Below are positions 46-36,275 of a stretch of DNA of 43,673 bases, piece after piece. The first letter of the stretch is position 1, and each line of letters begins with the position of its first letter. Position numbers and translations under genes: made by a program. Location: NCBI RefSeq assembly GCF_017168255.1, contig NZ_JABFAP010000001.1:216468-260140 (forward strand). The letters run 5' to 3'. A model generated the notes under the pieces. It ran no database searches. It was not told where the DNA came from and was given only the letters and a program-made list of their open reading frames with translations. This DNA is from Agrococcus sp. KRD186 (GTDB lineage: Bacteria; Actinomycetota; Actinomycetes; Actinomycetales; Microbacteriaceae).

Positions 46-1328
46 GTGCGCACTCGCCCGGTGAGCATGAGCGCCGCGAACACCGGAGCGCCGATCAGCG
101 CGGTGACGATGCCGACGGGCAGCTCGCGCGGGTCGAAGGCGGCGCGCGCGACGGTGTCGGCGACCAGCAGCACGATCGCTCCGGCGAGCCCCGAGGCGGG
201 CAGCAGCAGCGCGTGCGAGGAGCCCACCACCAGCCGCACCGCGTGCGGCACCACCAGGCCGATGAAGCCGATCGCGCCCGAGACCGACACCAGCACGCCG
301 GTCACGAGCGCGCACGCCACCAGCAGCACCCAGCGGGTGCGGCGGGCGTCGACGCCGAGCGCCCCGGCCGCGCTGTCGCCGAGCGAGAGCGCATCCAGCA
401 GCCGCCCGCTCACGAGCAGCGGCAGCGCAAGCGCGGCGCCCACCAGCGCGATGAGGGCGCTCTGCCAGCTGATCGAGGCGAGCGAGCCCAGCAGCCACGC
501 CAGGATCTCCCGGTACGCATCGCCGTCGGCCCCCCAGAAGATCACCAGCGAGACGAGGGCCGAGGCGGCGGATGCGACCACGACGCCCGCGAGCACGGTG
601 CGGGTGGGCGTGGCCCCACCCGCCGCGCCCGCGAGGCCGAGTGTCGCCAGCAGCGCCAGCAGCGCGCCGGCGAACGCCGCCACCGGCAGCAGCACGCCGA
701 GTCCGGCGATCAGCACCAGCACCGCGCCGACCGACGCGCCGGAGGAGACGCCCAGCAGGTAGGGGTCGGCGAGCGGGTTGCGCACGAGCGCCTGCATGAC
801 CACGCCGACGATCGCGAGCCCGGCGCCCACCGCGCAGGCGGCGAGCACGCGCGGCAGGCGCAGCTCCACCACGATGGCGTCCTCGATCGCGCTCAGCGGC
901 GTCGTGCCGATGCCCAGCCGCGCGGCGAGCGAGGCGAACGCGTCGGCGGGCGCGATGCCCGCGGCGCCGAAGCACACCGCCGCGAGCGCCGCAGCCAAGA
1001 GCACCGCCCCCAGCGCCGGCAGCGCCCAGCGCCGCGTGCGCGCCACTCCCCGCGCGCCCCGCGCGCGCGCCGCGCCCTCCGCGCTCCGCGCGCCCTCCGC
1101 GCTCCGCGCGCCCTCCGCGCTCCGCGCGCGCCCCAGGTATCGGGCGTGTTGCGCTTCGTCGCCGCGTTCGTGAGCAACCCGCCCTATACCTGCCGCCCGA
1201 GCGGGCGCGTTCGGCCCGGTTCCGGGCGCGAGAGGTGCCGCTTGCGACCGTTCGGTCGGCGGCCGCGAGTCGGTCGGCGGCCGCGAGTCGGCGGCGGCGC
1301 CCGAGGCGCCACGATCGGTTCGCGTCAT
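42..1328 (-). CDS. FecCD-family ABC transporter permease (putative F420-0 transporter permease)
   Basis: From about residue 95 onward this is a typical BtuC/FecCD permease of roughly 330 residues with about nine to ten hydrophobic segments, including family signatures near RNPLADPYLLGVSSGAS and IGFIGLVVPHAVRLVVG. It would move a cofactor- or siderophore-sized ligand across the membrane with the lipoprotein encoded just upstream. The ATG at 1328-1326 overlaps the TGA of that gene. The first 94 codons are low-complexity, made of two 18-bp tandem repeats and a 59-bp dispersed palindrome, so the true start may be a downstream GTG such as 1046-1044, just before the first membrane segment. The F420-0 label comes from the resemblance of the partner lipoprotein and from F420-type neighbours; another cofactor or metal chelate is possible. 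Confidence 0.8.
   Translation of the reverse strand: MTRTDRGASGAAADSRPPTDSRPPTERSQAAPLAPGTGPNAPARAAGIGRVAHERGDEAQHARYLGRARSAEGARSAEGARSAEGAARARGARGVARTRRWALPALGAVLLAAALAAVCFGAAGIAPADAFASLAARLGIGTTPLSAIEDAIVVELRLPRVLAACAVGAGLAIVGVVMQALVRNPLADPYLLGVSSGASVGAVLVLIAGLGVLLPVAAFAGALLALLATLGLAGAAGGATPTRTVLAGVVVASAASALVSLVIFWGADGDAYREILAWLLGSLASISWQSALIALVGAALALPLLVSGRLLDALSLGDSAAGALGVDARRTRWVLLVACALVTGVLVSVSGAIGFIGLVVPHAVRLVVGSSHALLLPASGLAGAIVLLVADTVARAAFDPRELPVGIVTALIGAPVFAALMLTGRVRT
1072..1125. repeat. 18-bp tandem repeat, three perfect copies
   Basis: The unit GCGCCCTCCGCGCTCCGC occurs three times without mismatch. Read on the minus strand in the permease frame it encodes a repeated ARSAEG-type hexapeptide in the low-complexity N-terminal part of the open frame. 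It lies 8 bp from the 59-bp palindrome. Confidence 0.9.
1134..1192. repeat. 59-bp dispersed palindromic repeat, copy 1
   Basis: The element begins CAGGTATCGGGCG and ends CGCCCTATACCTG. Its two arms are imperfect inverted copies (consensus half CAGGTATASGGCG, two variable bases, then TTGC), so it can fold into a long hairpin. Two more copies of exactly 59 bp lie at 25232-25290 and 34023-34081. This copy falls inside the 5' part of the permease open frame, which is one reason to doubt the longest start for that gene. Confidence 0.85.
1252..1287. repeat. 18-bp tandem repeat, two perfect copies
   Basis: TCGGTCGGCGGCCGCGAG is present twice in a row, with a partial third copy following. In the minus-strand permease frame it reads as repeated DSRPPT. 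It is unrelated in sequence to the 18-bp array at 1072-1125 but has the same period. Confidence 0.85.
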
Positions 1329-11248: not shown

Positions 11249-11254
11249 GCGATT

Positions 11255-11317
11255 CTCAACGTGTGAGGTGGCGGTTCGCTGCATGGTGTGCGCCGAACGA
11301 GCACCTCACACGTTGAG
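11255..11317. terminator. Long hairpin after the pyrimidine operon
   Basis: Sixteen-base perfect inverted arms, CTCAACGTGTGAGGTG at 11255-11270 and its complement at 11302-11317, enclose 31 bases whose outer part (GGTTCG / CGAAC) can pair further. It starts six bases after the aminotransferase stop and could end the operon transcript. There is no run of T after it, so a REP-like element or RNA-stabilising hairpin is an equal possibility. No second copy is present in the window. Confidence 0.6.
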
Positions 11318-11346
11318 ATCTTGCCGCGGCGGCTGATCGTCTGTCC

Positions 11347-11376: not shown

Positions 11377-11688
11377 ATGACCGCGACTCCAGGCGCCACA
11401 GCGCGCAAGCAGGCTCGGCTTGCTGTGCGCCTCACCCCCGAGCAGGACGCGCTGATCCGCGATGCTGCAACGGCCTCTGGCCAGACGCTCACCGACTTCG
11501 TCACGGCCGCTGCCGTCGTGCGAGCGGAGGACACGCTTGCCGACCGCCGGCTCTTCCGGCTCGACGATGCCGCGTGGCAGGAGTTCGAGACGATCCTCGA
11601 CCGGCCTGCGCAGCGCATCCCGGAGCTGGCGGCGCTGCTGGGCGAGCCGAGTCCGTGGGATGCGGCCGCCGTGCCGCGGCCGGCGTGA
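11377..11688 (+). CDS. DUF1778 / TacA-type antitoxin
   Basis: A 103-residue protein with an N-terminal ribbon-helix-helix-like segment (ARLAVRLTPEQDALIRDAA, with ASGQTLTDFV following) and a C-terminal part (FRLDDAAWQEFETILDRP, then PELAALL) that matches the toxin-binding tail of DUF1778 antitoxins. It should bind DNA as a dimer and neutralise the acetyltransferase encoded next, with which it overlaps by four bases (GTGA). An upstream GTG at 11347 is in frame but lies in the operator, so ATG 11377 is preferred. Confidence 0.85.
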   Translation: MTATPGATARKQARLAVRLTPEQDALIRDAATASGQTLTDFVTAAAVVRAEDTLADRRLFRLDDAAWQEFETILDRPAQRIPELAALLGEPSPWDAAAVPRPA

Positions 11689-12182
11689 CCGTGGAGCGAC
11701 CGCGACCGATCACTGCGACGGACGTCACGGCCGGGTTCGACTCGGGTGAGGAATCGCTCGACCGCTACCTCGCCGAACGGGCGCTGGCGAACCAGCTCGC
11801 CGGTGTCGCGCGCTGCTACGTGAGCGTCGCCGGCGGTCGCGTGGTCGGCTACTACACGCTGTCGGCGGTGACGATCGCGCACTCGCAGGTTGCGGGGCGG
11901 GTCCGACGCAACACGCCCGACCCGCTGCCGGCGGTGCTGCTGGGCCGGCTCGCCGTCGACCGCAGCGCCCAGGGCACGGGGCTCGGCATGCACCTGGTCC
12001 GCGATGCCATCCTGTCGACGCTCGCGGCGGCCGACCGGATCGGAGTTCGGGTGCTGCTCGTGCACGGGCTGCACGCCGAAGCTGCTGCGTTCTACGCATC
12101 GCTGGGCTTCGTGCCGTCGCCGACCGACCCACTGCACCTGTACGTGCTGCTCGCCGACGCACGCGCGTCGCTCGGCGGCTGA
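11685..12182 (+). CDS. GNAT-family acetyltransferase toxin (TacT/AtaT type)
   Basis: The 165-residue product has the GNAT core: a VVGYYTLSAVTI beta segment, acceptor-CoA motif A VDRSAQGTGLGMHLVRDAI (about residues 88-106) and a C-terminal FYASLGFVPSP motif. Toxins of this family acetylate the amino group of charged tRNA and stop translation. It starts with GTG overlapping the antitoxin stop; a second GTG two codons later is possible. The gene order antitoxin then toxin and the overlap support a working type II module. Confidence 0.87.
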   Translation: MTVERPRPITATDVTAGFDSGEESLDRYLAERALANQLAGVARCYVSVAGGRVVGYYTLSAVTIAHSQVAGRVRRNTPDPLPAVLLGRLAVDRSAQGTGLGMHLVRDAILSTLAAADRIGVRVLLVHGLHAEAAAFYASLGFVPSPTDPLHLYVLLADARASLGG

Positions 12183-24449: not shown

Positions 24450-25115
24450 TCAGTCTGCCGTGGGCGCGTCGGTGCTGCCCGTCTGGCGCATGCGCGCCGC
24501 GAGCCCGGGGTTGGATGCCTCCACATGCGCGAGCACGGAAGCGCGGGTCGCGTCCGACTTGTTCTGGCTCATCTTGCTCTTGGCGTCGAAGCCGGTCACC
24601 GTCAGCCGCAGGCCGATGGTGCCCATCGCCATGCCGCGGTTGCCGTCGTCGTCGATGTCGAGGCGGATGCCGTCCTCGGGCGCGTAGGCCTGCTCGAAGT
24701 GCTCGACCAGCCGCTGCAGCGTCTCCATGTTCGCCTGTGCGTCGAGCACCTCGACGTCGCACGTGAGCGTCGCCTGCTCGAAGTTCCAGGTGGGGATCTG
24801 CCCGGCGTCGCCGCCGAGGTACCAGCTGGGGGAGATGTAGCCGTGGTCGCCCTGCACGATGACGAGCATCCGGTGCGGCTCGCCGTCCTCGCGCGGCTGC
24901 AGCAGGCCGTGCAGGCGCCCGTCGGCTCGGCCGAGGTGCGTCTCGAGCACGATCGGCTCGTTTTCACCGCCCGGATCCTGCGGCGCGAGCAGCACCGGCG
25001 AGGGCGAGGCCACCGGCCCGGATGCGGGATGCGAGATCAGCTGCATCCACGGGTTGCGGGTGATCAGCTCGCGCACGTCGGCGACGCCGAGCTTGTAGAG
25101 CGGGTTCGGCTGCAT
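24450..25115 (-). CDS. PaiB-like FMN-binding protein
   Basis: The 221-residue protein starts MQPNPLYKLGVADVRELI and contains the split-barrel FMN-binding pattern of the PaiB family: LLAPQDPGGENEPIVLETHL, VIVQGDHGYISPSWY and the signature KSKMSQNKSDATRASV near the C-terminus. PaiB proteins are described as negative regulators of degradative enzymes and sporulation, although an enzymatic role is possible. ATG 25115 is preferred; longer upstream starts would add about 69 Arg/Ala-rich residues not found in the family. Confidence 0.85.
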   Translation of the reverse strand: MQPNPLYKLGVADVRELITRNPWMQLISHPASGPVASPSPVLLAPQDPGGENEPIVLETHLGRADGRLHGLLQPREDGEPHRMLVIVQGDHGYISPSWYLGGDAGQIPTWNFEQATLTCDVEVLDAQANMETLQRLVEHFEQAYAPEDGIRLDIDDDGNRGMAMGTIGLRLTVTGFDAKSKMSQNKSDATRASVLAHVEASNPGLAARMRQTGSTDAPTAD

Positions 25116-25231: not shown

Positions 25232-25290
25232 CAGGTATACGGCGATTTGCTCCGGCGCTGCAGCGATAAGCGCAACCAGCCCTATACCTA
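25232..25290. repeat. 59-bp dispersed palindromic repeat, copy 2
   Basis: Begins CAGGTATACGGCG and ends GCCCTATACCTA. The arms pair imperfectly, as in the other two copies; the centre is different. It is wholly intergenic, between paiB and the ABC binding-protein gene. Confidence 0.85.
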
Positions 25291-25380
25291 CGGGTGAGGG
25301 GCTCAGCGAGAGGACGTGTCACGGCGAGCTGGCTGCATAGGCGCAGTTGCGCGGGTGCTCCGCTCTGCTAGCATCACTCT

Positions 25381-25406
25381 CAGCGATATCGTTATCAGCG
25401 ATATCG
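25381..25406. promoter_or_regulatory. Double CGATATCG operator
   Basis: CAGCGATATCG occurs at 25381-25391 and again at 25396-25406. Each copy contains the perfect 8-bp palindrome CGATATCG, the two being 15 bp apart. The pair lies just downstream of the probable -10 hexamer TAGCAT, the usual place for a repressor. The XRE-cupin regulator encoded at 30475 in the same cluster is the obvious candidate, by inference. Confidence 0.6.
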
Positions 25407-25480
25407 GCGTCGGTTCTACGTTTCGCGGAAGCCGGCCATACCACTGAGACACCAAGCAATGACGCTAAGGAGTTCCTCAC

Positions 25481-26329
25481 ATGAACCGACGCATCCTGGC
25501 CGCAATCGGCGCCGTTGGGGCGGCAGCACTCATCTCCGGGTGCTCCGCAGCCTTGCCGGTCGACGAGAGTGAAGCCCCGACCGCCGCCGAGGCCGCGGTC
25601 AGCGCACCCGAGGGTCTCAACGGCAGCCTCTCCGTGTGCATGGACATCTCCTTCCCGCCGATGGAGTACTACTCCGGCGAGGGCACGGAGACTCCTGAGG
25701 GTGTCGACGTCGACCTGGCGTACGCGATCGGGGAGCAGTTCGGCCTGCCTGTCGAGATCGAGCCGACCGGCTTCGATGGGCTGCTGCCCGCGCTCTCTGC
25801 CAACCGCTGCGACACGGTCATCAGCGGCATTCTCGTCACGGAGGAACGCACGCAGCAGGTTCCTGCTGTGGGCTACCTCGACACCCATCGAGTCATCATG
25901 GTGGCGGATGGCAATCCGCGGGGGATCACCAGTTTCGAGGACCTCTCCGGCCTGAATGTCGCGCTCGAAGGCGGAACGAGCTACGAAGCCGTCGTCGACG
26001 GTTGGAACGATGAGCTGCGGTCGGCCGGCAGCCCCGAGATCAACATCCACCGCTATCCGAAGCAGACGGACGCGGTGCAGCAGTTGCTGGTCGGTCGTGC
26101 GGATGCGGTAGTCACGCAGGACACCGAGGCCGCCTACCGGATCGGCGAGGACCCGGGCACCTTCGAGGTCGCCATCGTGCTGCCGGACACTGAGACGTTC
26201 GGGATCTACTACAGCGATCAGATCGAGGGACTCGGATCAGCGCTGGAGCAGGCCGTCGCCAACCTCTCCGAGAGTGGGGAGATCGACCGGATCGCTGCTG
26301 ACCACAATCTGCAGACGGAAGTCGACTAG
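25481..26329 (+). CDS. Amino-acid ABC transporter substrate-binding lipoprotein
   Basis: The 282-residue protein has a signal peptide with lipobox (ISGC near residue 21). The mature part is an SBP_bac_3 fold: LSVCMDISFPPMEYY, GVDVDLAYAIGEQFGL, FDGLLPALSANRCDTVISGI and a C-terminal EIDRIAADHNL. Members bind polar amino acids such as arginine, glutamine or ornithine. It is the first gene of a three-gene importer and of the larger cluster, whose enzymes suggest arginine or a guanidino amino acid as the ligand. The base composition is less GC-biased than in the genes to the left. Confidence 0.9.
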   Translation: MNRRILAAIGAVGAAALISGCSAALPVDESEAPTAAEAAVSAPEGLNGSLSVCMDISFPPMEYYSGEGTETPEGVDVDLAYAIGEQFGLPVEIEPTGFDGLLPALSANRCDTVISGILVTEERTQQVPAVGYLDTHRVIMVADGNPRGITSFEDLSGLNVALEGGTSYEAVVDGWNDELRSAGSPEINIHRYPKQTDAVQQLLVGRADAVVTQDTEAAYRIGEDPGTFEVAIVLPDTETFGIYYSDQIEGLGSALEQAVANLSESGEIDRIAADHNLQTEVD

Positions 26330-26331
26330 CG

Positions 26332-27084
26332 ATGACGCTCGATCTCCAGATCTTCATCGATGCGCTGTTCTCCCGAGTCTTCCTCGAGGGCGCGCTCATC
26401 GCGGTCGCGCTCGCGGTGCTCTCGCTCGCTGGCGCAGCGGTGCTGGGATTCGTCATGGCATTGCTGCGCGACAGCAGGATCGCGGCGCTTCGGACCTTCG
26501 CCGCGGGCTACATCTGGTTCTTCCGGGCGATTCCGACGCTCTTGCAGCTCCTCTTCACCTGGAATGCGCTTCCGCAACTCTTCCCCGCGCTTCGCGAAAA
26601 CTGGTTCTCTCCCTTCCTTGCTGCGCTCATCGCACTGATCATCAACGAGAGCGCGTATGTCGCAGAGATCGTGCGGGCAGGGTTGCTGTCGATCGATGAC
26701 GGGCAGCGTGAGGCCGGGCGCGCCGTCGGGCTGAAGCCGGGAGCGATCATCCGATGGATCCTCCTGCCTCAAGCGATCCGCGTCAGCCTGCCGCCGATGG
26801 GCAACGAGCTCATCAACATGCTGAAGCTCACGAGCCTGGCTTCAGTCATCAGCTTGCAAGAGCTCCTGACCGTCACCGCGCAGCAGGTCTCTCTGACATT
26901 CGCATTCGTCGAGCTTTACCTGGCCGCCGCCGTGTACTACCTGGTCATCGTGTCCATCTTCACGCTCATCCAGCGGCGACTCGAGCGCAATTACGAATGG
27001 ACCTCGCGAAAGGTGAGCTCGACACCCATGGGCGCCATCACTCGCGCGATCAGGTTGCCGAGTCTCACAGGGGGAAACAAATGA
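26332..27084 (+). CDS. Amino-acid ABC transporter permease (HisM/GlnP type)
   Basis: The 250-residue membrane protein has about five helices and the polar amino-acid permease signatures [35 protein letters not shown] and the loop [20 protein letters not shown] followed by [15 protein letters not shown]. It starts two bases after the binding-protein stop. Only one permease gene is present, so it likely works as a homodimer. It ends in an ATGA overlap with the ATPase gene. Confidence 0.93.
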
Positions 27085-27857
27085 ACGTCGAGCAGCCGTT
27101 CCTCTCGGTGCGCAACGCGCACAAGGCCTACGGTGACGTCGAAGTGCTCCATGGCATCGACCTCGACGTCGCGCAGGGCACGACGACCGTCGTCCTGGGA
27201 CCGTCCGGCTCAGGGAAGAGCACGATCCTCCGCTGCATGGCGTTGCTGGAGCCGCTCAGCGAGGGCACGATGCGGCTCGCAGGGGAGCTCCATGGGATGC
27301 GCGAAGACTCCAAGGGCCGAATCGTGCCTGTGGAGGAGAACAAGCTCTGGGAGCAACGTCAGCATCTGGGCATGGTCTTCCAGCGCTTCAACCTGTTCCC
27401 GCACATGACGGTCGAGCACAACGTGTCGCTCGCGCTGCGACGAACGGCGGGCCTGAACAAGCACGAGGCGCGTGACAGAGCGATCCAACAGCTCACTCGA
27501 GTGGGGCTCGGGGCGTTCGTCACCCGCTTCCCGGCAGAGCTCTCGGGGGGTCAGCAGCAGCGCGTGGCGATCGCCCGCGCCCTTGCGCTCAAGCCGAAGA
27601 TCATGTTCTTCGACGAACCCACCAGCGCGCTCGACCCGGAGCTCGTGCAGGAGGTGCTCGACGTCATGGAAGAGCTGGCGCACGAGGGCATGACGATGGT
27701 CACGGTCACGCACGAGATGTCGTTCGCGAAGCATGTCGCCGACGAGGTCATCTTCATGGATGAGGGCGAAGTCGTCGAACGGCGACCGCCAGAGGAGTTC
27801 TTCGACGACCCGCAGCACGGGCGGACGAAGAAGTTCCTTGCGCACCTCGCCAAATGA
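27081..27857 (+). CDS. Amino-acid ABC transporter ATP-binding protein (GlnQ/HisP type)
   Basis: The 258-residue ATPase has Walker [11 protein letters not shown]-loop [13 protein letters not shown], signature [15 protein letters not shown], Walker [15 protein letters not shown] and switch VTHEMSFA. A short insert after the first strand ([20 protein letters not shown]) is common in polar amino-acid ATPases. It closes the importer operon and is followed after 82 bases by the oxidase gene. Confidence 0.94.
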
Positions 27858-27939
27858 ACAGGCGAGCGGTGGGACAGCGCACCGCTGGACAGCCAAGAGC
27901 GACGCTCGAGGCCCGAACGAAGCAGAAGGGGTGGCGCTC

Positions 27940-29334
27940 ATGTCGACACCATTGAGCCCTGACTACCAGAACGGGAATGTCTCGTTCTGGCGAAGGACGC
28001 TGGAGGCGGCCGGATCGCGCCCCGCGCTCCCAGGCGACGCGACTGCAGATGTCGTCATCGTCGGCGGCGGCTACACAGGGATGTGGACCGCGTTCTATTT
28101 GAAGCAGCAGGCGCCCGACATGCGGATCGTCGTGCTCGAGTCCGAGACGGTCGGCTACGGCGCCTCGGGGCGCAACGGCGGCTGGCTGTCTGGCGAGTTC
28201 GGTGGATCGCAGGAGAAGTATGCGGCGGAGTCCTCGCCAGCCGCGGTTTCACGCATGCAGGCCCATCTGGTGGCGAGCATCGACGAAGTCATCACGATCG
28301 CAGGCGAGCGCGGGATCGACGCTGAGATCGCGCATGACGGTCTGGTCTACGTCGCGACGACGTTGAGCCAGGCGAAGCGCCTGCAGCACAAGGAAGCGCA
28401 TCAGCGAGCATGGGGTCGCACCCCCGATGACTTCCGCATCCTCTCGCCGAACGATGGGCGACCGGTGAATGTGCATGGCGCCACCGCATTCGGTTTCAGC
28501 CCGCACGGAGCGCGGATCAATCCGGCAAAACTGGTCGCCGGTCTTGCTCGAGAGGTCGAAGCGATGGGAGTGCGTATCTACGAGCACACCCCTGTCACTG
28601 AGGTGCAGCAGGGCGGCGTGATGACGACACGCAGCCGGGTTCGTGCGGAGACTGTGCTGATCGCGACCGAGGGGTTCACCGCCGGCCTGCCCGGGCGGCG
28701 CCGTGACTGGCTCCCGATGAACAGCGTGATGATCGTGACCGAGCCACTGTCCGACGCCGCCTGGAGCGAGATCGATTGGCGGGGCGATGTCCTCCTCGGA
28801 TCGATCGGCCACGTGTTCATGTATGCGCAGCGCACGCCTGATGGGCGGATCGCGATCGGGGGTCGAGGCAACCCCTATCGTTTCGGCTCCAAGACCGACA
28901 CCAACGCGATGGCCCGGCCGGAGGACGTCGACGCGCTGTGGAAGCAGCTGACGACGTTCTTCCCCGCAGTGCGCGACTCGAAAGTCGCGCATTCGTGGTG
29001 CGGGACTCTGGGAGTCGCCCGTGACTGGTGCGCGACGGTCGCCTTCGACCCGAGTACGGGCATCGGTCATTCCGGCGGGTATGCAGGCCACGGCGTCGCG
29101 CTCGCCCACCTGGGAGGACGGACGCTGGCGGAACTGGTCTTGGGCGAGCAGACCGAGCGCACGGCACTCCCGCTCGTGAATCGGCGGATCAGGAAATGGG
29201 AGCCGGAACCGCTGCGCTGGATCGGAGCGCAACTCATCTACGGGCTCTACCGCCAGGCGGATCGTCGAGAGCTGCACGGCTCAGCCAGATCCAGCTTCCT
29301 CGGAACAGCCGCAGACCGGATCTCCGGCCGTTGA
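27940..29334 (+). CDS. FAD-dependent amino acid/polyamine oxidoreductase (DAO family, PuuB-like)
   Basis: The 464-residue flavoenzyme has the dinucleotide-binding motif VVIVGGGYTGMWTAFYL (about residues 38-54), the GASGRNGGWLSGEFGG segment typical of this subfamily, and a C-terminal GYAGHGVALAHLGGRTLAEL FAD signature. Relatives oxidise the amine of amino acids or gamma-glutamyl-polyamines, giving an imine and reduced FAD. Beside a ureohydrolase and a 2-keto-acid decarboxylase it may deaminate arginine to 2-ketoarginine, which is an inference. AGAAGGGG ends nine bases before ATG 27940; GTG 27931 is an alternative start. Confidence 0.85.
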   Translation: MSTPLSPDYQNGNVSFWRRTLEAAGSRPALPGDATADVVIVGGGYTGMWTAFYLKQQAPDMRIVVLESETVGYGASGRNGGWLSGEFGGSQEKYAAESSPAAVSRMQAHLVASIDEVITIAGERGIDAEIAHDGLVYVATTLSQAKRLQHKEAHQRAWGRTPDDFRILSPNDGRPVNVHGATAFGFSPHGARINPAKLVAGLAREVEAMGVRIYEHTPVTEVQQGGVMTTRSRVRAETVLIATEGFTAGLPGRRRDWLPMNSVMIVTEPLSDAAWSEIDWRGDVLLGSIGHVFMYAQRTPDGRIAIGGRGNPYRFGSKTDTNAMARPEDVDALWKQLTTFFPAVRDSKVAHSWCGTLGVARDWCATVAFDPSTGIGHSGGYAGHGVALAHLGGRTLAELVLGEQTERTALPLVNRRIRKWEPEPLRWIGAQLIYGLYRQADRRELHGSARSSFLGTAADRISGR

Positions 29335-29374
29335 ACGCGCGAACATCGTCCAGATTGCAACAAGGAGAGAGACA

Positions 29375-30469
29375 ATGAGCACTTCGAGTGTGGAACGGGC
29401 CTTCCAGCAGGCCGAGCTTGCGGCCGAGGCGAGTGACACTCGCGTAGAGCGTCGACCTGAGCGTCTCATCGCACCGGGGGTTCCGACGTTCGCCGAAGTG
29501 GAGCATGCGACGCTCGCCGAGGCCGACAAGTTTGATGCGCTGGTCTACGGCGTCCCCTATGAAGGATTCGTCGTCAAAGACCCTCGCAATTTCTACCCGC
29601 AGGGGACCGCCCCGTGCCCCGGTCATGACGTGTACTCGCGTCCGGGCGCGTACGACGCGCCCAGAGCCATCCGGCAGGCTTCGAAGTTCTACTCGATCGA
29701 CCATTCGAACTGGTTGCTGCCCGAGCGCGGTGGCCTGACGCTCGGCGAGCACGTGCGGGTGGGTGACCTCGGTGACGCACCGATCGGCCAGCAGTCGATG
29801 GAGGAGATCCTGACCTGGTTGCCGGCCGAGATCGCGCAGATCGCTGCGGCTGGAACGGTGCCGCTGATCTTGGGCGGGGACCACAGTGTGTCGCTGCCGA
29901 CGATCGCCGGCATCTATCAGGCGAAGGGCAAGAAGCTCGGCGTCATCACCTACGACGCCCACTATGACCTGTCGTGGTATCCCAAGTATTGGGCGGGTTC
30001 GCAGTGGGCGCGGGCGATGGAGCTGGGTGCGCTCGATCCGAAGAACCTGGTGCACTTGGGCATCCGCGGGGTCCGCAATTCACAGTTCTGGCATGCGGCT
30101 GCGAAGCAGCTGCAGACCAACGTCTACACGATCGACGACTTCGACAAGCGCGGCGTGGAGGCCGTCAGCCAGGAAGCTCGCGAGCGTGCGCTGGACGGCG
30201 TGGACGCGCTCTACGTCTCCATCGATGTCGACGTCTTCGACCCGGCAGCGCTGCCGGCGCAGAAGTACCCGGAGGTGGGCGGGCTCGACACCCGCGAGAT
30301 GCTTCGTTCGCTGCGGACGGTCCTCGGCGACGGTCGGGAACTGGTCGGCTTCGACTTCTCATGCCTCGGGCCCGCGTACGATCACCAGCACCACGGTTCG
30401 GCTGTCGCCGGACGCTGCTACGTCGAGGTCATCGCAGCGATCGCGGCAGGCAGGGCAGAGGAGGGGTAG
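29375..30469 (+). CDS. Ureohydrolase (agmatinase/guanidinobutyrase family)
   Basis: The 364-residue protein has the binuclear manganese motifs of arginase-fold enzymes: LILGGDHSVSLP, ITYDAHYDLSW (usual DAHxD) and the late SIDVDVFDPAALPA. The late motif around LGPAYDHQHHGSAVAGR is also normal. The N-terminal 90 residues include a Pro/Gly-rich insert near PQGTAPCPGHDVYSRPGAYD, longer than in classical agmatinases. It removes urea from a guanidino compound; 4-guanidinobutyrate fits the neighbours best, with agmatine or another guanidino acid as alternatives. A good ribosome-binding site (AAGGAGAGAG) precedes ATG 29375. Confidence 0.88.
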   Translation: MSTSSVERAFQQAELAAEASDTRVERRPERLIAPGVPTFAEVEHATLAEADKFDALVYGVPYEGFVVKDPRNFYPQGTAPCPGHDVYSRPGAYDAPRAIRQASKFYSIDHSNWLLPERGGLTLGEHVRVGDLGDAPIGQQSMEEILTWLPAEIAQIAAAGTVPLILGGDHSVSLPTIAGIYQAKGKKLGVITYDAHYDLSWYPKYWAGSQWARAMELGALDPKNLVHLGIRGVRNSQFWHAAAKQLQTNVYTIDDFDKRGVEAVSQEARERALDGVDALYVSIDVDVFDPAALPAQKYPEVGGLDTREMLRSLRTVLGDGRELVGFDFSCLGPAYDHQHHGSAVAGRCYVEVIAAIAAGRAEEG

Positions 30470-30474
30470 GACTG

Positions 30475-31134
30475 ATGCGCGAGACAACGGAGGCCACTGC
30501 GAATTCCTCAGCCGACGACCCTGACGAGCTCGTCGACAGGAAGCTGCTCGGAAGCACCATCCAGGCGCTGCGGAAGCAGCAGGGTCTCACCATGGTGCAA
30601 CTCGCGAAGGGCGCCGGTGTCTCGCAGCCGTATATCAGCGAGATCGAGGCGGGGAAGGCGATGCCGAGCCTGTATGTGCTGTACGCGCTCGCGCAGCAGC
30701 TCGGCTCGACCCCGGTCAATCTGCTGCGCCGCACGTCCGACAGCGTGGGGGTCAATGTCGTCGCGTCCACGGAGGGGACTAGGTATCCCATCCGCACGAG
30801 CAACAACGGCGGGCACTTCCGGGCGATCCTGACGATCGGATCCATCTCGGTGACGGAGTTCAATGCCACCGAGGAGGACGACATCGAGGGGGACTTCTCG
30901 CACGAGGGCATCGAGATGGTCTACGTGGCGGAAGGAAGCCTGCAGATCACCGTCGCCGATGAGCAGCCGGTCCTACTCCACGAAGGCGACGTGATGACCT
31001 ACGCGGGCGAGCTGCCGCACTCCTGGAAGGTGGTGGGTTCGCGACAGGTTCGAGTGCTGCAGGTCGTCGACTCTCCCCACTTCCCGCAATTCACGCATCC
31101 GATGGGCAGCAATCGGGATGTCGAGCCCGAGTAG
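30475..31134 (+). CDS. XRE-family regulator with C-terminal cupin domain
   Basis: The 219-residue protein has a helix-turn-helix of Cro/C1 type (about residues 25-85: LRKQQGLTMVQLAKGAGVSQ and YISEIEAGKAMPSLYVL) and a cupin barrel (about 120-210: EGDFSHEGIEMVYVAEGSLQ, LLHEGDVMTYAGELPHSWKV). Such proteins, including PuuR-like repressors, sense small metabolites through the cupin. It lies five bases after the ureohydrolase stop, in the middle of the cluster, so it probably controls the CGATATCG-bearing promoter at 25347-25406. Confidence 0.9.
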   Translation: MRETTEATANSSADDPDELVDRKLLGSTIQALRKQQGLTMVQLAKGAGVSQPYISEIEAGKAMPSLYVLYALAQQLGSTPVNLLRRTSDSVGVNVVASTEGTRYPIRTSNNGGHFRAILTIGSISVTEFNATEEDDIEGDFSHEGIEMVYVAEGSLQITVADEQPVLLHEGDVMTYAGELPHSWKVVGSRQVRVLQVVDSPHFPQFTHPMGSNRDVEPE

Positions 31135-31280
31135 TTCGCTCAGGACGAGCAGCTCTCGACCGAGAGCGACGTGCACCAAGACAGACCTGCGGAGTGAACT
31201 GCAGTCACCGGGTTAGCGGCGCACTGCCGCAGCCACCCGTGGGTGCTGGATTTGCCACCCATTGAAAGGACGCTTCCTAT
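31135..31280. other. Spacer with short hairpin before the TPP enzyme gene
   Basis: GCTCTCG (31152-31158) and CGAGAGC (31161-31167) can form a tight stem after the regulator gene, but no T-run follows. CACCCGTGGGTG near 31236 is a small palindrome. GAAAGGA (31265-31271) is the ribosome-binding site of the next gene. I find no recognisable guanidine or TPP riboswitch. Confidence 0.4.
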
Positions 31281-33005
31281 ATGTCGATCCAAGTGCCGAC
31301 CGTGCGCACCACTGTCTCGATGCCGGTGGAACATGCCGCCATCGTGCCTGGCAGCAGTCGTGAGGAAAATGTCGGGTTCGCGATCCTGGCGCTGATCCGT
31401 GCCTACGGTGTGGACGTCGTGTTCGGTATCCCGGGTACGCACAACCTGGAGTTCTATCGGCATCTTCCGCGACTGGGCTTCCGCACGGTCACCACCCGCC
31501 ACGAACAGGGTGCAGGCTATGCGGCCGACGGCTGGCACCAGCGCACGCGGCTCCCTGGGGTGGTGATCACGACATCAGGACCGGGGTTCCTCAACTCCCT
31601 CGCGGCCGCCGGCACCGCCTACTGCGAGTCCCGTCCGCTCATCATCCTGACTCCCGGCGCCCCGCGCGGCAGCGAGGGGGTCGAGACCGGAGCCTTGCAC
31701 GCCACGAAGGATCAGCGCGCAGCCGCCGCAGGCGTCGTGGAGTGGGCGCGCCGGGTGTCCTCGGCGTCCGAAGCGATCGAAGCGGTCCATGATGCGTTCG
31801 AGCTGGCGCGCAGCAGCCGGCCGCGCCCGGTGGTGATCGAAGTCCCATTGGATCTCCTGGAAGCCTGCGCGAACTTGCCCGCAGAGGCGCTCCTGCCTCG
31901 GCAGTCGAGCGGGCTCCCGGTCGAGGTGCATGGTGCCGTGAACGCGGCGGCTCGTCCGAAACTCACACAGCCGGTCCTCGACGAAGTCGAGCAGGTGGCG
32001 ACGGTGCTCGCGGCTGCACGGCAGCCTGTGATCCTTGCAGGCAGTGGAGCCCTGCCTGCTGGCCGCGCGCTGACCGAACTCGCCGAACTGCTCGACGCGC
32101 CCGTCATCACCAGCCTGAACGCGAAGGGTGCGGTGCCCGAGTCGCATCCGCTGTCTATCGGTGCGGAGCTTCGACTCGATGCCGCGCGACGGGTCGCGAA
32201 CGGCTCGGACGCGCTCCTTGTCATCGGCTCGAAGATTGCTGAAGCCGAGCTGTGGGGCGGCGCGATCGCCCCATCCGGCGCAATGATCACCGTCGACATC
32301 CTGCCGTCGGAGGAACGTGGCCACCTCCAGTCGACGCATGCAATCATCGGCCACTCGGCGCTCCTGGTTCCTGCACTGATCGCGTCGCTTCGCGGTCGAG
32401 CGCTCAGCGCAGAACCGCAGGATGTGGAAGCTGTGCGGGTGGCATGCGCCGCTGAGTCGTCGAAGATCGCCTTGGTCGAGGATCGCCTGGCCGCGCGACT
32501 CGCAGCGGTCCTGCCTTCGGACGCGGTACTGACCGGAGACTCATCTCGGATCACCTACTACGGCATGACCAGCCGGGTGCGCTCCGAAGAGCCCGGTGCT
32601 TTCCTCTACATGGCTACCTATGCGACTCTCGGCTACGGATTGCCGGCAGCGATCGGCGCCAAGGTGGCGAGCCCAGACCGACCTGTCATCGCAGTGGTCG
32701 GCGACGGAGCGCTCATGTTCTCCGTGCAGGAGTTCCAGACCGCGGTGGAACAGCGACTGGATCTGACAGTCATCTGCGTGGACAACGGCGGCTACGGCGA
32801 GATCGAGCAGAATCAGGCCGAACGGGGCATCCCACCTATCGGGGTACGCCTCACCCAGCCTGACTGGGCCGCGCTCGTCGATGCTTTCGGCGGCACCGGA
32901 TTCCGGGTCACGGATGCGGAGGAGTTGGAAGCCGTCGTGGTGCGCGCCATCGCTCATCCGGGAGTGACGCTCGTGCACGTGCCGTTCGGGTTGTTCGGCG
33001 CGTAG
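31281..33005 (+). CDS. Thiamine-diphosphate enzyme, probably 5-guanidino-2-oxopentanoate decarboxylase
   Basis: A 574-residue member of the acetolactate synthase-like family. The PYR domain has DVVFGIPGTHNLEFYRHLP and the catalytic Glu in TTRHEQGAGYAADG; the PP domain has YATLGYGLPAAIGAK and the TPP motif VVGDGALMFSVQEFQTAVEQ ... NNGGYGE-like NGGYGEI. The GIPGTHNLEFYR and HATKDQR stretches resemble enzymes annotated as 2-ketoarginine decarboxylase (AruI) more than biosynthetic acetolactate synthase, and no regulatory subunit gene is nearby. It would form 4-guanidinobutyraldehyde. Another 2-keto-acid substrate cannot be excluded. Confidence 0.8.
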   Translation: MSIQVPTVRTTVSMPVEHAAIVPGSSREENVGFAILALIRAYGVDVVFGIPGTHNLEFYRHLPRLGFRTVTTRHEQGAGYAADGWHQRTRLPGVVITTSGPGFLNSLAAAGTAYCESRPLIILTPGAPRGSEGVETGALHATKDQRAAAAGVVEWARRVSSASEAIEAVHDAFELARSSRPRPVVIEVPLDLLEACANLPAEALLPRQSSGLPVEVHGAVNAAARPKLTQPVLDEVEQVATVLAAARQPVILAGSGALPAGRALTELAELLDAPVITSLNAKGAVPESHPLSIGAELRLDAARRVANGSDALLVIGSKIAEAELWGGAIAPSGAMITVDILPSEERGHLQSTHAIIGHSALLVPALIASLRGRALSAEPQDVEAVRVACAAESSKIALVEDRLAARLAAVLPSDAVLTGDSSRITYYGMTSRVRSEEPGAFLYMATYATLGYGLPAAIGAKVASPDRPVIAVVGDGALMFSVQEFQTAVEQRLDLTVICVDNGGYGEIEQNQAERGIPPIGVRLTQPDWAALVDAFGGTGFRVTDAEELEAVVVRAIAHPGVTLVHVPFGLFGA

Positions 33006-33086
33006 ACAGTTGGGCTAGACGACGGCTGTCCACAGCGTCGAACGCCCGACGAGCACTGCGGTACGGGCGCGGGGCACACTGCGCGC

Positions 33087-34031
33087 ATGCCAGCGCGCCG
33101 ACCGTTGCCGAAGTCGTTCCTCGACGGCCCGTTCCTCGTCGCCGAGGCCCGGCGCGCAGGCATCGGCGATGGCCGGTTGCGAGGCAGCGACCTGACGATG
33201 CCGTTCCACCGGGTGCGAGCGACATCGATCGCGAGCGTCTGCGAGCAGGCTGCGGCGTATGCGACGGTCATGGCGCCGCACCACGTCTACGGCGGCATCA
33301 CTGCCGCGAGGCTGTGGGGGCTCCCGATCGCCGAAGCGTGGACGCTCGCTGAGGAGTTGGTGATCGCGCGGCCAAATCGGACGGCAACCGGTTACGCACG
33401 CGGCACGCGGCACATCGCCGTCCACGGAGGATTGCAGCGCGACGCAATGCACGGCGTCCGTCTGCTGGCTCCGATGCCGACCGCGCTCACGCTCGCGCGC
33501 GATCTGCCGCAGGAAGCGTTGGTGCAGGTGCTCGACGCGCTGCTGACGCCGTCGCGCTGGTACCCCGGGCTGCAGCTGCCGCGAGCGGCGGGCGAGCCAC
33601 ACGCGACACCCGAGCAGTTGCGGCGCTTCATCGAGAGCTGCAGTCGTCTCGTCGGCGTCCCGGCGCTGCGCGCCGCTGCGGCGGATGCGCGCGTCGGCGC
33701 CGACTCGCGCTTCGAGACGATCACGCGGCTGCTGATCGTGGAGGCCGGGCTGCCCGAGCCAGTGGTGCATCCGCTGGTCGTGATCGACGGCATCGACATG
33801 CACCCAGATCTGGCGTATCCGGAGCTGAAGATCGCCATCGAGTACGAGGGGGATGGCCACCGCGACGAGCGACAGTGGGCCGTCGATATCGAGCGCTATG
33901 CACCGATGGAGGCGGCCGGCTGGATCACCGTGCGCGTCACGAAGGATCACATGGCGCGTCGCGGCGCGCACTTCGTGGAGCGTGTGCGGGCCGCGCTTGC
34001 CCGCCGCGCAGGTGGCCTCTCACAGGTATAG
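33087..34031 (+). CDS. DUF559-like protein with putative endonuclease-type C-terminal domain
   Basis: The 314-residue protein has an N-terminal region reminiscent of AbiEi-like proteins (YGGITAARLWGLPI) and a C-terminal Vsr/DUF559-like domain: DMHPDLAYPELKIAIEYEGD carries Asp and Glu-x-x-Glu residues at the place of a PD-(D/E)xK core, followed by GHRDERQWAVDIERYAPMEAAGW. Such proteins are common in Microbacteriaceae and of unknown function. Its TAG stop is inside the left end of the third 59-bp repeat, so the repeat supplies the last codons and the stop. Confidence 0.75.
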   Translation: MPARRPLPKSFLDGPFLVAEARRAGIGDGRLRGSDLTMPFHRVRATSIASVCEQAAAYATVMAPHHVYGGITAARLWGLPIAEAWTLAEELVIARPNRTATGYARGTRHIAVHGGLQRDAMHGVRLLAPMPTALTLARDLPQEALVQVLDALLTPSRWYPGLQLPRAAGEPHATPEQLRRFIESCSRLVGVPALRAAAADARVGADSRFETITRLLIVEAGLPEPVVHPLVVIDGIDMHPDLAYPELKIAIEYEGDGHRDERQWAVDIERYAPMEAAGWITVRVTKDHMARRGAHFVERVRAALARRAGGLSQV

Positions 34032-34081
34032 GGCGCGTTGCTCCTGCGAGGCGCCTGGGTGAGCAAACCGCCGTATACCTG
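34023..34081. repeat. 59-bp dispersed palindromic repeat, copy 3
   Basis: Begins CAGGTATAGGGCG and ends CGCCGTATACCTG; arms pair almost completely out to TTGCTC/GAGCAA. It overlaps the last nine bases of the DUF559-like gene and supplies its stop codon. Confidence 0.88.
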
Positions 34082-34227: not shown

Positions 34228-36105
34228 TCAGGCCGGGACGGCCTGCGCCTGCAGCTGCGTCTGCTGCATGTGCTCGAGGCGCCACCGCACGTGGTTCAGC
34301 TGGCGCACGAGACCCGTGGGCAGCGAGTGGCCGAACTGGCCGAAGAACGCCTCGACGTCGACGAGCTCCGACAGCCACGGCTTCGGGCGCACCTCGAAGA
34401 GCTCGTTCAGCGTCTCCTGGTCGAGCTCGAGGCCCTCGAGGTTCAGCGCGCCGGTGGCCGGCATGACGCCGATCGCGGTGTCGACGCCCTCGGCGGTGCC
34501 TGCGACGCGGCCCGCGATCCACTCGAGCACCCGGGCGTTCTCGCCGAAGCCGGGCCACAGGAATCCGCCGTCTTCATCACGACGGAACCAGTTGACCGAG
34601 AAGATCTTCGGCGCGTGGCGGCCGAGGCGGTGGCCCATGTCGATCCAGTGCGAGAAGTAGTCGCCCATGTTGTAGCCGCAGAAGGGCAGCATCGCGAAGG
34701 GGTCGCGGCGGATGTCGCCGACGGTGCCCTCAGCGGCGGCCGTCTGCTGGCTCGAGACCGTCGAGCCGATGTAGACGCCGTGCTCCCAGTCGCGCGCCTG
34801 CATCACCAGCGGCACCTGCGTCGGGCGGCGGCCGCCGAAGATGATCGCGTCGAGCGGCACGGCCTCCTCCCAGTCGGGGGCGATGGAGGGCGCCTGCTCG
34901 GCGCGCACGGTGAAGCGCGCGTTCGGGTGGGCGGCGGGGCCGTTGGCCGGGTCGTAGGGGCGGCCCTGCCAGTCGGTGAGGCCCTCGGGGGCCTCCTTCG
35001 TCATGCCCTCCCACCAGACGTCGCCGTCGGCGGTGAGGGCGACGTTCGTGAACATCGTGTCGTGCGTCATCATCGCCATGGCGGTGGCGTTGGTCTTCTC
35101 GCTCGTGCCGGGGGCGACGCCGAAGAAGCCGTTCTCGGGGTTGATGGCCCAGAGGCGGCCGTCGTCGCCGGGGCGCATCCAGACGATGTCGTCGCCGAGC
35201 GTCTCGACCTTCCAGCCGGGGATGGTCGGCTGCAGCATCGCCAGGTTGGTCTTGCCGCAGGCGGAGGGGAAGGCGCCGGCGAGGTGCATGACGCGGCCGT
35301 CCTCGTGGCGCATGCGCAGCAGCAGCATGTGCTCGGCGAGCCAGCCCTCGTCGCGAGCCTGCACCGAGGCGATGCGCAGCGCGAAGCACTTCTTCGCCAG
35401 CAGGGCGTTGCCGCCGTAGGCGGAGCCGAACGACCAGATCTCGCGCGTCTCGGGGAAGTGCGAGATGTAGCGGGTGCTGTTGAACGGCCACGGCACGTCC
35501 TGCTCGCCCTCGGCGAGCGGCGCGCCGATCGAGTGCACCGCGGGCACCCAGTCCTTGGTGCCGTGCATCGCCTCGAGCGCGGCCGTGCCGACGCGCGTCA
35601 TCGCGTGCATGGAGGCGACCACGTAGGGGGAGTCGGTGATCTCGATGCCGAGCTTCGAGATGGGGCCGCCGACGACGCCCATCGAGAAGGGGATGACGAA
35701 CATCGTGCGGCCGCGCATCGCGCCGTCGAAGAGGCCGCCGAGCACCTGGCGCATCGACTCGGGGTCGCGCCAGTTGTTCGTGGGGCCGGCGTCGTCGGAA
35801 TCCTCGGCGCAGATGAAGGTGCGGCTCTCCATGCGGGCGACGTCGTCGGGGTTCGAGCGCGCGAGGTAGCTGTTGGGCCGCGCCGGCACGGGCACGATGG
35901 TGCCGGCCTCGAGCATGATGTCGACCAGCCGCTGGTACTCCTCGGGCGTGCCGTCGGCCCAGACGATGTCCTTGGGCTCGGTGAGCTCGGCGATCGACGC
36001 CACCCACGAGACCACACCCGGGTCGGCGCCCTCGGGGGCATTGACCAGAGCCGGCTTGACGGGCTTGGCGGATGAGCGGGTCGGCGCGGGAGGGAGGAGC
36101 GTCAT
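34228..36105 (-). CDS. pckG: Phosphoenolpyruvate carboxykinase (GTP)
   Basis: The 625-residue enzyme converts oxaloacetate and GTP to phosphoenolpyruvate, the first step of gluconeogenesis. Visible motifs are RPNSYLARSNPDDVARME at the substrate end, FGSAYGGNALLAKKCFALR, the P-loop with reactive Cys HLAGAFPSACGKTNLAM (about residue 285), the metal-binding GDDIVWMR and the NWFRRDEDG stretch near the C-terminus. Length is normal with ATG 36105; a GTG at 36180 would add 25 unlikely residues. It is divergent from a RamB-like regulator, and both 5' ends carry related operator sites. Confidence 0.96.
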   Translation of the reverse strand: MTLLPPAPTRSSAKPVKPALVNAPEGADPGVVSWVASIAELTEPKDIVWADGTPEEYQRLVDIMLEAGTIVPVPARPNSYLARSNPDDVARMESRTFICAEDSDDAGPTNNWRDPESMRQVLGGLFDGAMRGRTMFVIPFSMGVVGGPISKLGIEITDSPYVVASMHAMTRVGTAALEAMHGTKDWVPAVHSIGAPLAEGEQDVPWPFNSTRYISHFPETREIWSFGSAYGGNALLAKKCFALRIASVQARDEGWLAEHMLLLRMRHEDGRVMHLAGAFPSACGKTNLAMLQPTIPGWKVETLGDDIVWMRPGDDGRLWAINPENGFFGVAPGTSEKTNATAMAMMTHDTMFTNVALTADGDVWWEGMTKEAPEGLTDWQGRPYDPANGPAAHPNARFTVRAEQAPSIAPDWEEAVPLDAIIFGGRRPTQVPLVMQARDWEHGVYIGSTVSSQQTAAAEGTVGDIRRDPFAMLPFCGYNMGDYFSHWIDMGHRLGRHAPKIFSVNWFRRDEDGGFLWPGFGENARVLEWIAGRVAGTAEGVDTAIGVMPATGALNLEGLELDQETLNELFEVRPKPWLSELVDVEAFFGQFGHSLPTGLVRQLNHVRWRLEHMQQTQLQAQAVPA

Positions 36106-36275
36106 GTCTCGAGTCTTGCCCGCGAGCACCGCCCGGTGTCGCCGATCCGAGAGAAGAATCCATCCATCCTTCACTTCCACGAAACTTGGACGCCCCAGGG
36201 GCGGAGCGCACCGTGTATGACGACGTTCGCGACAAATATGGCGAAGATTCGACGAAAGTTTCGTAGACTGGGCGC
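36106..36275. promoter_or_regulatory. pckG / regulator divergent promoter with two related operator sites
   Basis: ACGAAAGTTTCGT (36252-36264) is a perfect palindrome with one central base, 11 bases before the regulator ATG. ACGAAACTT (36179-36187), read on the minus strand as AAGTTTCGT, repeats nine bases of it on the pckG side. Known RamB sites in Corynebacterium are also AAAGTTTGC-like, which supports binding by the neighbouring regulator. TAGACT (36264-36269) could be the -10 element of a leaderless regulator mRNA. Confidence 0.6.

Follow-up and report, generated by a model that had tools for sequence, protein, structure and literature searches.

What are the three palindromes of identical length that lie dispersed in this 43,673-nucleotide stretch of Agrococcus sp. 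KRD186 DNA (the window, by which we mean the whole stretch that was analysed), and which resident gene goes with them? The earlier note had described them as an undescribed REP/MITE-like family or a regulatory hairpin. As detailed below, genes for a putative Vsr/DUF559-like nuclease, one of which lies in the window, are in about half of the cases flanked by a matching pair of such palindromes. We propose, with a probability of roughly 0.6, that the palindromes form the non-coding part of a two-part, REPIN/REPtron-like system that works with an unrelated nuclease. The features concerned are listed in Table 1.

Table 1. Palindromes and genes of the window that bear on the argument (positions within the window)
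Feature	Position	Strand	Context
Palindrome copy 1	1134..1192	.	Between periplasmic-binding-protein gene and FecCD permease gene
Palindrome copy 2	25232..25290	.	Adjoins FMN_bind_2 gene; in relatives, the upstream flank site of the nuclease gene
Palindrome copy 3	34023..34081	.	Downstream flank of the nuclease gene; includes its TAG stop (34029-34031)
FMN_bind_2 gene	24450..25115	-	Adjoins the nuclease locus on the left; conserved there
Later insertion, 7.8 kb	25291..33086	.	GC about 0.63-0.67 vs 0.71; transporter and amine-catabolism-type genes
Vsr/DUF559-like (PD-(D/E)XK) nuclease gene, 314 aa	33087..34031	+	Proposed palindrome partner
GTP-type PEP carboxykinase gene (pckG)	34228..36129	-	Conserved right neighbour of the nuclease locus

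Anatomy, placement and gain of the palindromes

Each of the three palindromes is exactly 59 bp long, as the earlier note had reported, and its half-site also held, with all six arms matching AGGTATANGGCNNNTTGC at 0-1 mismatch; at ≤3 mismatches the expected mean number of half-sites in the window is 0.76, and six were reached in 0 of 100 shuffles. Further copies were readily found in the own genome (3.10 Mb in 25 contigs), where a search with the whole 57-base pattern, the arms being held at a fixed distance and ≤3 mismatches allowed, recovered 18 complete copies and the reversed control pattern none. A covariance model trained on 25 copies added two diverged ones (C1:2107389 and C1:895249), bringing the family to 20, a total that leaves out a weaker model match with other arms (C1:985712; E = 0.0035). 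One more copy is split by rearrangement, its halves now lying 32 kb apart. In the 18 copies found by pattern, the 36 arms follow the consensus (C)AGGTATA[GC]GGCG NN T[T/C]GC(T)C, and the inner 17 bases are unconserved among the same copies despite their near-identical arms; the claim that the centres differ while arms and spacing stay fixed thus stood. The polarity that had been read from TATAC in one arm and TATAG in the other found no support: which of C or G stands at position 8 varies independently between the arms of a copy (6 G/G, 5 C/C, 6 mixed and 1 T/G among the 18 copies). When 60 genus copies, taken at 59 bp by a selection that prefers this length and leaves out a copy of 61 bp (L124), were rescanned with register and length free, the centre was unchanged in 60/60. 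A GTAG/CGTC-type tetranucleotide is absent at the foot of the window-dialect arms (profile of the 36 arms and their flanks), and GTAG occurs inside the arm in some other dialects. There was no Rfam match at gathering scores in the window. With a chromosome-organising site as a further candidate, the positions of the own copies look mildly clustered by eye.

By our own gene calls, 19 of the 20 own copies are non-coding, mostly close to the ends of genes: 11 lie between convergent, five between tandem and three between divergent genes, and one lies inside a gene. Convergent pairs are enriched (11/20 copies, compared with 5/40 gene pairs of the window; Fisher p = 0.0012). For the window itself, the contexts given earlier were correct in that copy 3 supplies the stop codon of the gene at 33087; copies 1 and 2, one of which had been placed in a doubtful gene 5' end, are by these gene calls both intergenic. 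The in-gene copy is in frame in an ABC-transporter gene (Pfam ABC_tran), which we take to be CydC-like, and stands at the same place in six Agrococcus species with several arm dialects. It falls between Walker A and the Q-loop of the ATPase (L042, L051, L097, L103, L111, L122).

The window contains one other palindrome, of 65 bp (11254-11318, TCTCAACGTGTGAGGTG...), which lies 5 bp beyond an aminotransferase stop and precedes a TacA-like/GNAT pair (11425-12182) by about 100 bp; it is probably the operator of this toxin-antitoxin-like pair.

The enrichment between convergent genes would be expected if the palindromes were terminators or mRNA-end hairpins that share sequence by chance. Of the three window copies, two have single-strand RNA folds whose stability exceeds that of most shuffles (z = -2.65, -1.02 and -4.09 for the three), and the centres pair above chance, at 0.406 versus 0.284 in 60 copies (reached by 0/500 shuffles) and 0.362 versus 0.288 in the own 20 (reached by 15/500), which may point to a hairpin role. 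The arms of the 25-copy set behave differently: 80.0% of positions are paired versus 78.7% in shuffles, a value reached by 42/500, and the covariation score is reached by 94/500. The compensatory changes between arms that the earlier note had suggested seeking are thus in no excess over shuffles, its regulatory hairpin is not favoured in spite of the slight excess of centre pairing, and selection on an RNA hairpin is not supported as the sole cause. Because pairing and covariation barely exceed shuffles, the arms look instead like two separately read half-sites. A terminator, moreover, would need no genome-specific arm sequence, would hardly be expected within an ABC-transporter reading frame, and would leave unexplained why matching pairs surround one gene family. 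We therefore regard this explanation as very doubtful.

Comparison with the near relative Agrococcus baldri IAM 15147 (G001) bears on how copies are gained. At two own copies between convergent genes (C1:1384085 and 1858943), the corresponding genes of G001 are only a few bases apart, and G011 is likewise empty at the first; the own genome holds the palindrome together with about 50-90 bp of other DNA. Target-site duplications, sought in these two comparisons, were not clearly seen beside this extra flanking DNA. As judged from the aligned sequences, the empty sites support gain of the palindrome in the own lineage, and leave the inserted unit undefined. Much of the spread is nevertheless old, since some copies share their locus in several species: copy 1 has an ortholog in G001 (L050), a palindrome stands at the copy 2 site also in G013 (L098), G011 (L114), G004 (L124) and G015 (L169), and the copy 3 site is occupied in G013, G015 and G001 (other arms).

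Presence in one genome and absence in a close relative, together with short inverted repeats that are unconserved inside, would also suit ordinary MITEs, whose arms would be the terminal inverted repeats of a DDE-type IS, with the nuclease gene often carried along or standing nearby by chance. At ≤2 mismatches, the half-sites outside whole copies in the own assembly (contig gaps uncovered) amount to the split copy and two weak matches, and with stray half-sites so nearly absent no element with single-arm ends is seen there. Whole palindromes rather than single arms flank the nuclease gene, and the arm sequences go with that gene, as described below; we consider a MITE origin highly improbable.

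The split copy (C1:445070-477191 in G000; L053, L054) is interrupted by a 32-kb segment. One edge of this segment carries a fragment of an ISL3 transposase, and the inverted ends of the segment lie next to a shared GCAAGA. The segment holds what we take, from their sequences, to be core-type genes, and the genes around the split copy are presumably der and pdxY, between which G001 has an intact palindrome (L052). The single arms (C1:445070 and 477174) were considered as prophage or ICE att sites bounding a 32-kb island, a candidate rejected on the core-type genes, the ISL3 edge and the intact G001 site. For the same reasons we read the split as an IS insertion followed by rearrangement: going by sequence, an IS apparently entered the palindrome and the rearrangement came afterwards.

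A nuclease gene with palindromes on both sides

In G013, two palindromes lie on either side of the ortholog of the window's nuclease gene, and the order found in G013 and G015 (FMN_bind_2 gene, palindrome, nuclease gene, palindrome, pckG) is also that of the window, except for the 7.8-kb insertion after copy 2. This insertion, which separates copy 2 from the nuclease gene, contains genes for a solute-binding protein, an ABC transporter, a DAO oxidoreductase, an arginase-family protein, an HTH-cupin regulator and a TPP enzyme; its two flanks are 1.7-1.8 kb apart in G001, G011 and G015.

The window protein matches PF18741 (REase_MTES_1575) at E = 1.4e-5, which is below the curated cut-off, and among 36 aligned homologs PF18741 was found in 32 and DUF559 (PF04480) in 14 at E ≤ 0.01. 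PF18741 bears the name of the Vsr-type nuclease domain described in PMC3710099. Eight residues are invariant in the 36 homologs (E210, R214, E224, D241, E252, G255, H258 and D267), among them acidic and histidine residues of catalytic type. Weak matches to nucleases of known structure were obtained in the PDB (3hrl, E = 0.0076; PvuRts1I, E = 0.02), and in NCBIfam the window protein had no match, with two sub-cut-off DUF559 matches among four homologs. A single-sequence AlphaFold2 model reached a pLDDT of 35, too low for a reliable structure. These matches suggest a putative nuclease with a C-terminal Vsr/DUF559-type PD-(D/E)XK domain and a variable N-terminal half. The latter has a motif that we take to resemble AbiEi-type proteins; an N-terminal AbiEi-like domain was nonetheless rejected, as no AbiEi family is among the Pfam matches of the 36 proteins at E ≤ 0.01.

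All 24 Agrococcus genomes contain homologous matches to the nuclease (2-6 per genome), and 87 such loci were inspected, of which 86 had enough flank and 80 had flanks of at least 300 bp. A matching pair was defined as a palindrome on each side of the gene, the arms agreeing at no fewer than 13 of 16 bases. Such a pair surrounds 44 of the 86 genes, compared with 1.9% of 2895 cross-genome pairings. With flanks of at least 300 bp, the count is 42/80 nuclease genes versus 1/130 other genes (Fisher p = 1e-20, the homologs of related genomes being non-independent). The window's own gene was scored as a miss because of the 7.8-kb insertion. About half of the homologs are without a matching pair; some of these are near contig ends or have stops, and some may have another role. 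One subfamily, at 28-33% identity and present in many Agrococcus genomes, has no palindromes beside its genes (L239, L240, L241, L243, L244, L246, L247, L250, L252, L254, L262) and can thus be used as an internal control; it is possibly domesticated.

The pairing extends beyond the genus. In other genera of the Microbacteriaceae, homologs at E ≤ 1e-15 were found in 29 of 30 genomes, and 17 of the 30 best loci (29 genomes) have a matching pair, compared with 0.6% of 868 cross pairings. In a class-wide sample, homologs at E ≤ 1e-30 are present in 56 of 118 genomes. The scan covered 27 new loci there, of which three were unusable at contig ends and one belonged to the same family; among the 23 usable loci outside the Microbacteriaceae, 13 have a matching pair. 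Several GTTGATC-type palindromes per genome were seen around homologs in large-genome actinobacteria (L307, L308, L312 and L314; family f20). Clusters of 4-5 palindromes of one dialect, similar to REPtron clusters, lie near nuclease genes at L190 (G003), L204 (G011) and L195 (G012). A search for viral carriers returned 95 pattern matches in viral contigs, none of them a relative by tblastn.

Many of the nuclease genes have a palindrome no more than about 200 bp from their start, as would be expected if the protein were mainly a DNA-binding autoregulator and the palindromes its operators, some of them scattered or recruited without mobility. The inverted arms with near-fixed spacing and free centres resemble the site of a dimer, and the independent variation of the two arms agrees with such a site as well. 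The operator model is, however, at odds with the second matching palindrome downstream of about half of the genes, with the 11/20 own copies (5/40 window pairs) between convergent genes and with the copy inside a reading frame in six species, and it would require another reason for the conserved nuclease residues. Taken together, these points make it unlikely that operators account for the family, and we continue with the two-part reading.

Arm dialects and their relation to the protein

Copies with the strict window pattern were found in 3 of 24 Agrococcus genomes and, in a family-wide sample of 398 genomes that included ten Agrococcus, in two, both Agrococcus; the model search, with 150 candidates scored per genome, matched in 11 of the 24 at E ≤ 0.01. 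Relatives have palindromes of the same geometry with other arms, for example CAGGTATAGGGCGAGTCGCTC, CAGATGTAGGGCCAGTGGCT, CAGATGTGTGGCGATCGGCT and CAGAGATGTGGCGAT, and many palindrome sites are orthologous across Agrococcus. Among the 60 copies, the likeness of arms is 0.788 within a genome (293 pairs) versus 0.726 at orthologous sites (36 pairs), and that of centres shows the reverse (0.399 versus 0.539); the arms are closer to their paralogs than to their ortholog in 23 of the 36 orthologous pairs, a modest majority. These genome comparisons lean to window-like copies, since the model was built mainly from the own genome. At one orthologous locus, the own genome (L057) and G001 (L115) have window-type arms and G011 (L158) and G015 (L165) have CAGAGTGCCG-type arms.

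Dispersal was counted for three dialects, those of the window, G009 and family f20, and ranges from 4 to 20 copies per genome. In G009 (19-base arm, ≤2 mismatches), 12 half-sites make up six palindromes, all spaced 36 bp, and the gene stands between two of these. Such half-sites number 0-4 in each of the remaining 23 Agrococcus genomes, and the reversed control gave 1 in all. In f20, our own pairing of the half-sites gave 15 palindromes in G475, nine in G506, eight in G447 and four in G462, spaced 38-40 bp, with 5, 1, 6 and 6 half-sites, respectively, left unpaired (18/90); in G447, G506 and G462, the gene is bracketed by two of these palindromes. The same dialect is represented by 3 and 2 half-sites in two other f20 genomes and by 0 or 1 in six outside genomes.

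Arm sequences differ between lineages of the gene and match most often between close proteins: all 4 pairs whose proteins are ≥75% identical have matching arms, compared with 36% of 28 at 60-75%, 4% of 27 at 50-60%, 15% of 39 at 40-50% and 1-3% of 892 below 40%. The overall correlation between protein and arm likeness is weak (Spearman 0.116; reached by 26/2000 permutations). G001 offers a natural experiment: its coding DNA near the copies is 86-97% identical to the own genome over 18 flank pieces, yet its nuclease is 60% identical, compared with 73% for G015 and 72% for G011, although these genomes are more distant over the same pieces. The single palindrome beside the G001 nuclease has other arms (GAAATGGGTCACGATCTGCTC). 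In addition, the window-type copies of G001 score 0.871 versus 0.926 in the comparison with the own consensus (p = 0.004; p = 0.06 in eight orthologous pairs), a test that again favours window-like copies because the consensus is the own genome's. The nuclease gene of G001 thus appears, from these identities, to have been replaced or to be evolving fast.

A gene with this behaviour might be a selfish cut-and-protect element, akin to homing or addiction, in which the nuclease would cut a target and the palindromes would be the copied-in or protected product. EDxHD homing enzymes have a domain of the same fold, which would suit such an element. So would the apparent replacement or fast evolution in G001 (60% identity) and a nuclease domain of the Vsr type (PMC3710099). 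The palindrome, however, is not split by the gene, and the copies stand at unrelated sites that share no wider flanks; this possibility seems to us very unlikely.

A proposed two-part system and its comparison with known systems

In the two-part reading, the nuclease would probably recognise the palindrome that belongs to it and be what drives or maintains the copies. That gene and palindrome go together is an observation; from it we infer binding, cleavage and movement. The nuclease, probably as a dimer, would read both arms of its own palindrome and would nick or cut there, perhaps when the palindrome is extruded or single-stranded in replication. Repair of the cuts, or replication of the cut DNA, would then re-copy or spread palindromes. 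The nuclease gene may, in addition, be controlled by the pair that flanks it. With divergence of the protein, the recognised arm sequence would shift and old copies would decay. An enzyme of another fold must work by chemistry other than the HUH mechanism. We see about an even chance that these pairs represent an unrecognised class of genomic parasite, or a domesticated system, throughout the actinobacterial class, in which a lone Vsr-type nuclease propagates a private palindrome without an HUH, DDE, tyrosine or serine recombinase and in which protein and palindrome specificity change together so fast that close species have different dialects at the same loci.

Several known systems share single traits with this arrangement. 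EDxHD homing enzymes share the Vsr-type nuclease fold. The nuclease described here is related in fold class, and possibly in selfish behaviour, to the EDxHD/Vsr-like homing endonucleases (PMC6083498), but no intron or intein was seen around it, and its gene does not interrupt the palindrome. AbiEi-type regulators bind inverted repeats as well, whereas the palindromes here lie on both sides of the gene and genome-wide; what sets them apart from MITEs, which are also short, dispersed elements with inverted repeats, is that the own assembly holds no parent with single-arm ends and that the inside is unconserved despite near-identical arms.

The closest likeness in layout is to REPIN/REPtron systems. 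In these, as described in PMC3116915 and PMC6006769, conserved inverted arms enclose a less conserved spacer of set length, the RAYT gene is flanked by its own repeat type, a genome may have several types, each with a gene, and the mostly extragenic, dispersed REPs, attributed to the RAYT gene, reach hundreds of copies. The palindromes described here likewise have inverted arms, a variable spacer of set length and dispersed extragenic copies, and about half of the nuclease homologs lie between repeats of their own type. They differ in the enzyme, which is a Vsr/DUF559-like nuclease rather than an HUH-Y1 transposase, in the number of copies (4-20 per genome in the three dialects, compared with hundreds for REPs) and in the 2-6 homologous nuclease matches per Agrococcus genome. 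The REP-associated tyrosine transposase that the earlier note had proposed to look for (HUH-Y1/RAYT, PF01797) was found in 0 of 24 Agrococcus genomes, with 5 of 14 control genomes positive. Membership of the RAYT/REP family was accordingly rejected, and because the Y1 enzyme is missing the system is REPtron-like in layout only. The description as an undescribed REP/MITE-like family therefore holds for the palindromes, which are dispersed, mostly non-coding, enriched between convergent genes and endowed with other arms in relatives, but not for the expected transposase.

To our knowledge, a single enzyme family, that of the HUH-Y1 transposases, has so far been taken to give rise to REPIN-RAYT pairs. 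Among the open-access literature matches listed, none links DUF559/MTES_1575-type nucleases with palindromes, and on balance we think that a REPIN/REPtron-like arrangement on a non-homologous enzyme is new here. If the two-part reading holds, DUF559/MTES_1575-type proteins would gain a testable role, the many gene-palindrome pairs would form a natural data set on how such a nuclease reads DNA, and the question of why bacteria keep REP-like repeats would become testable in genomes without RAYT. Overall, a second, non-homologous enzyme with the same layout would indicate convergence on one solution, in which a resident caretaker gene accompanies dispersed palindromes.
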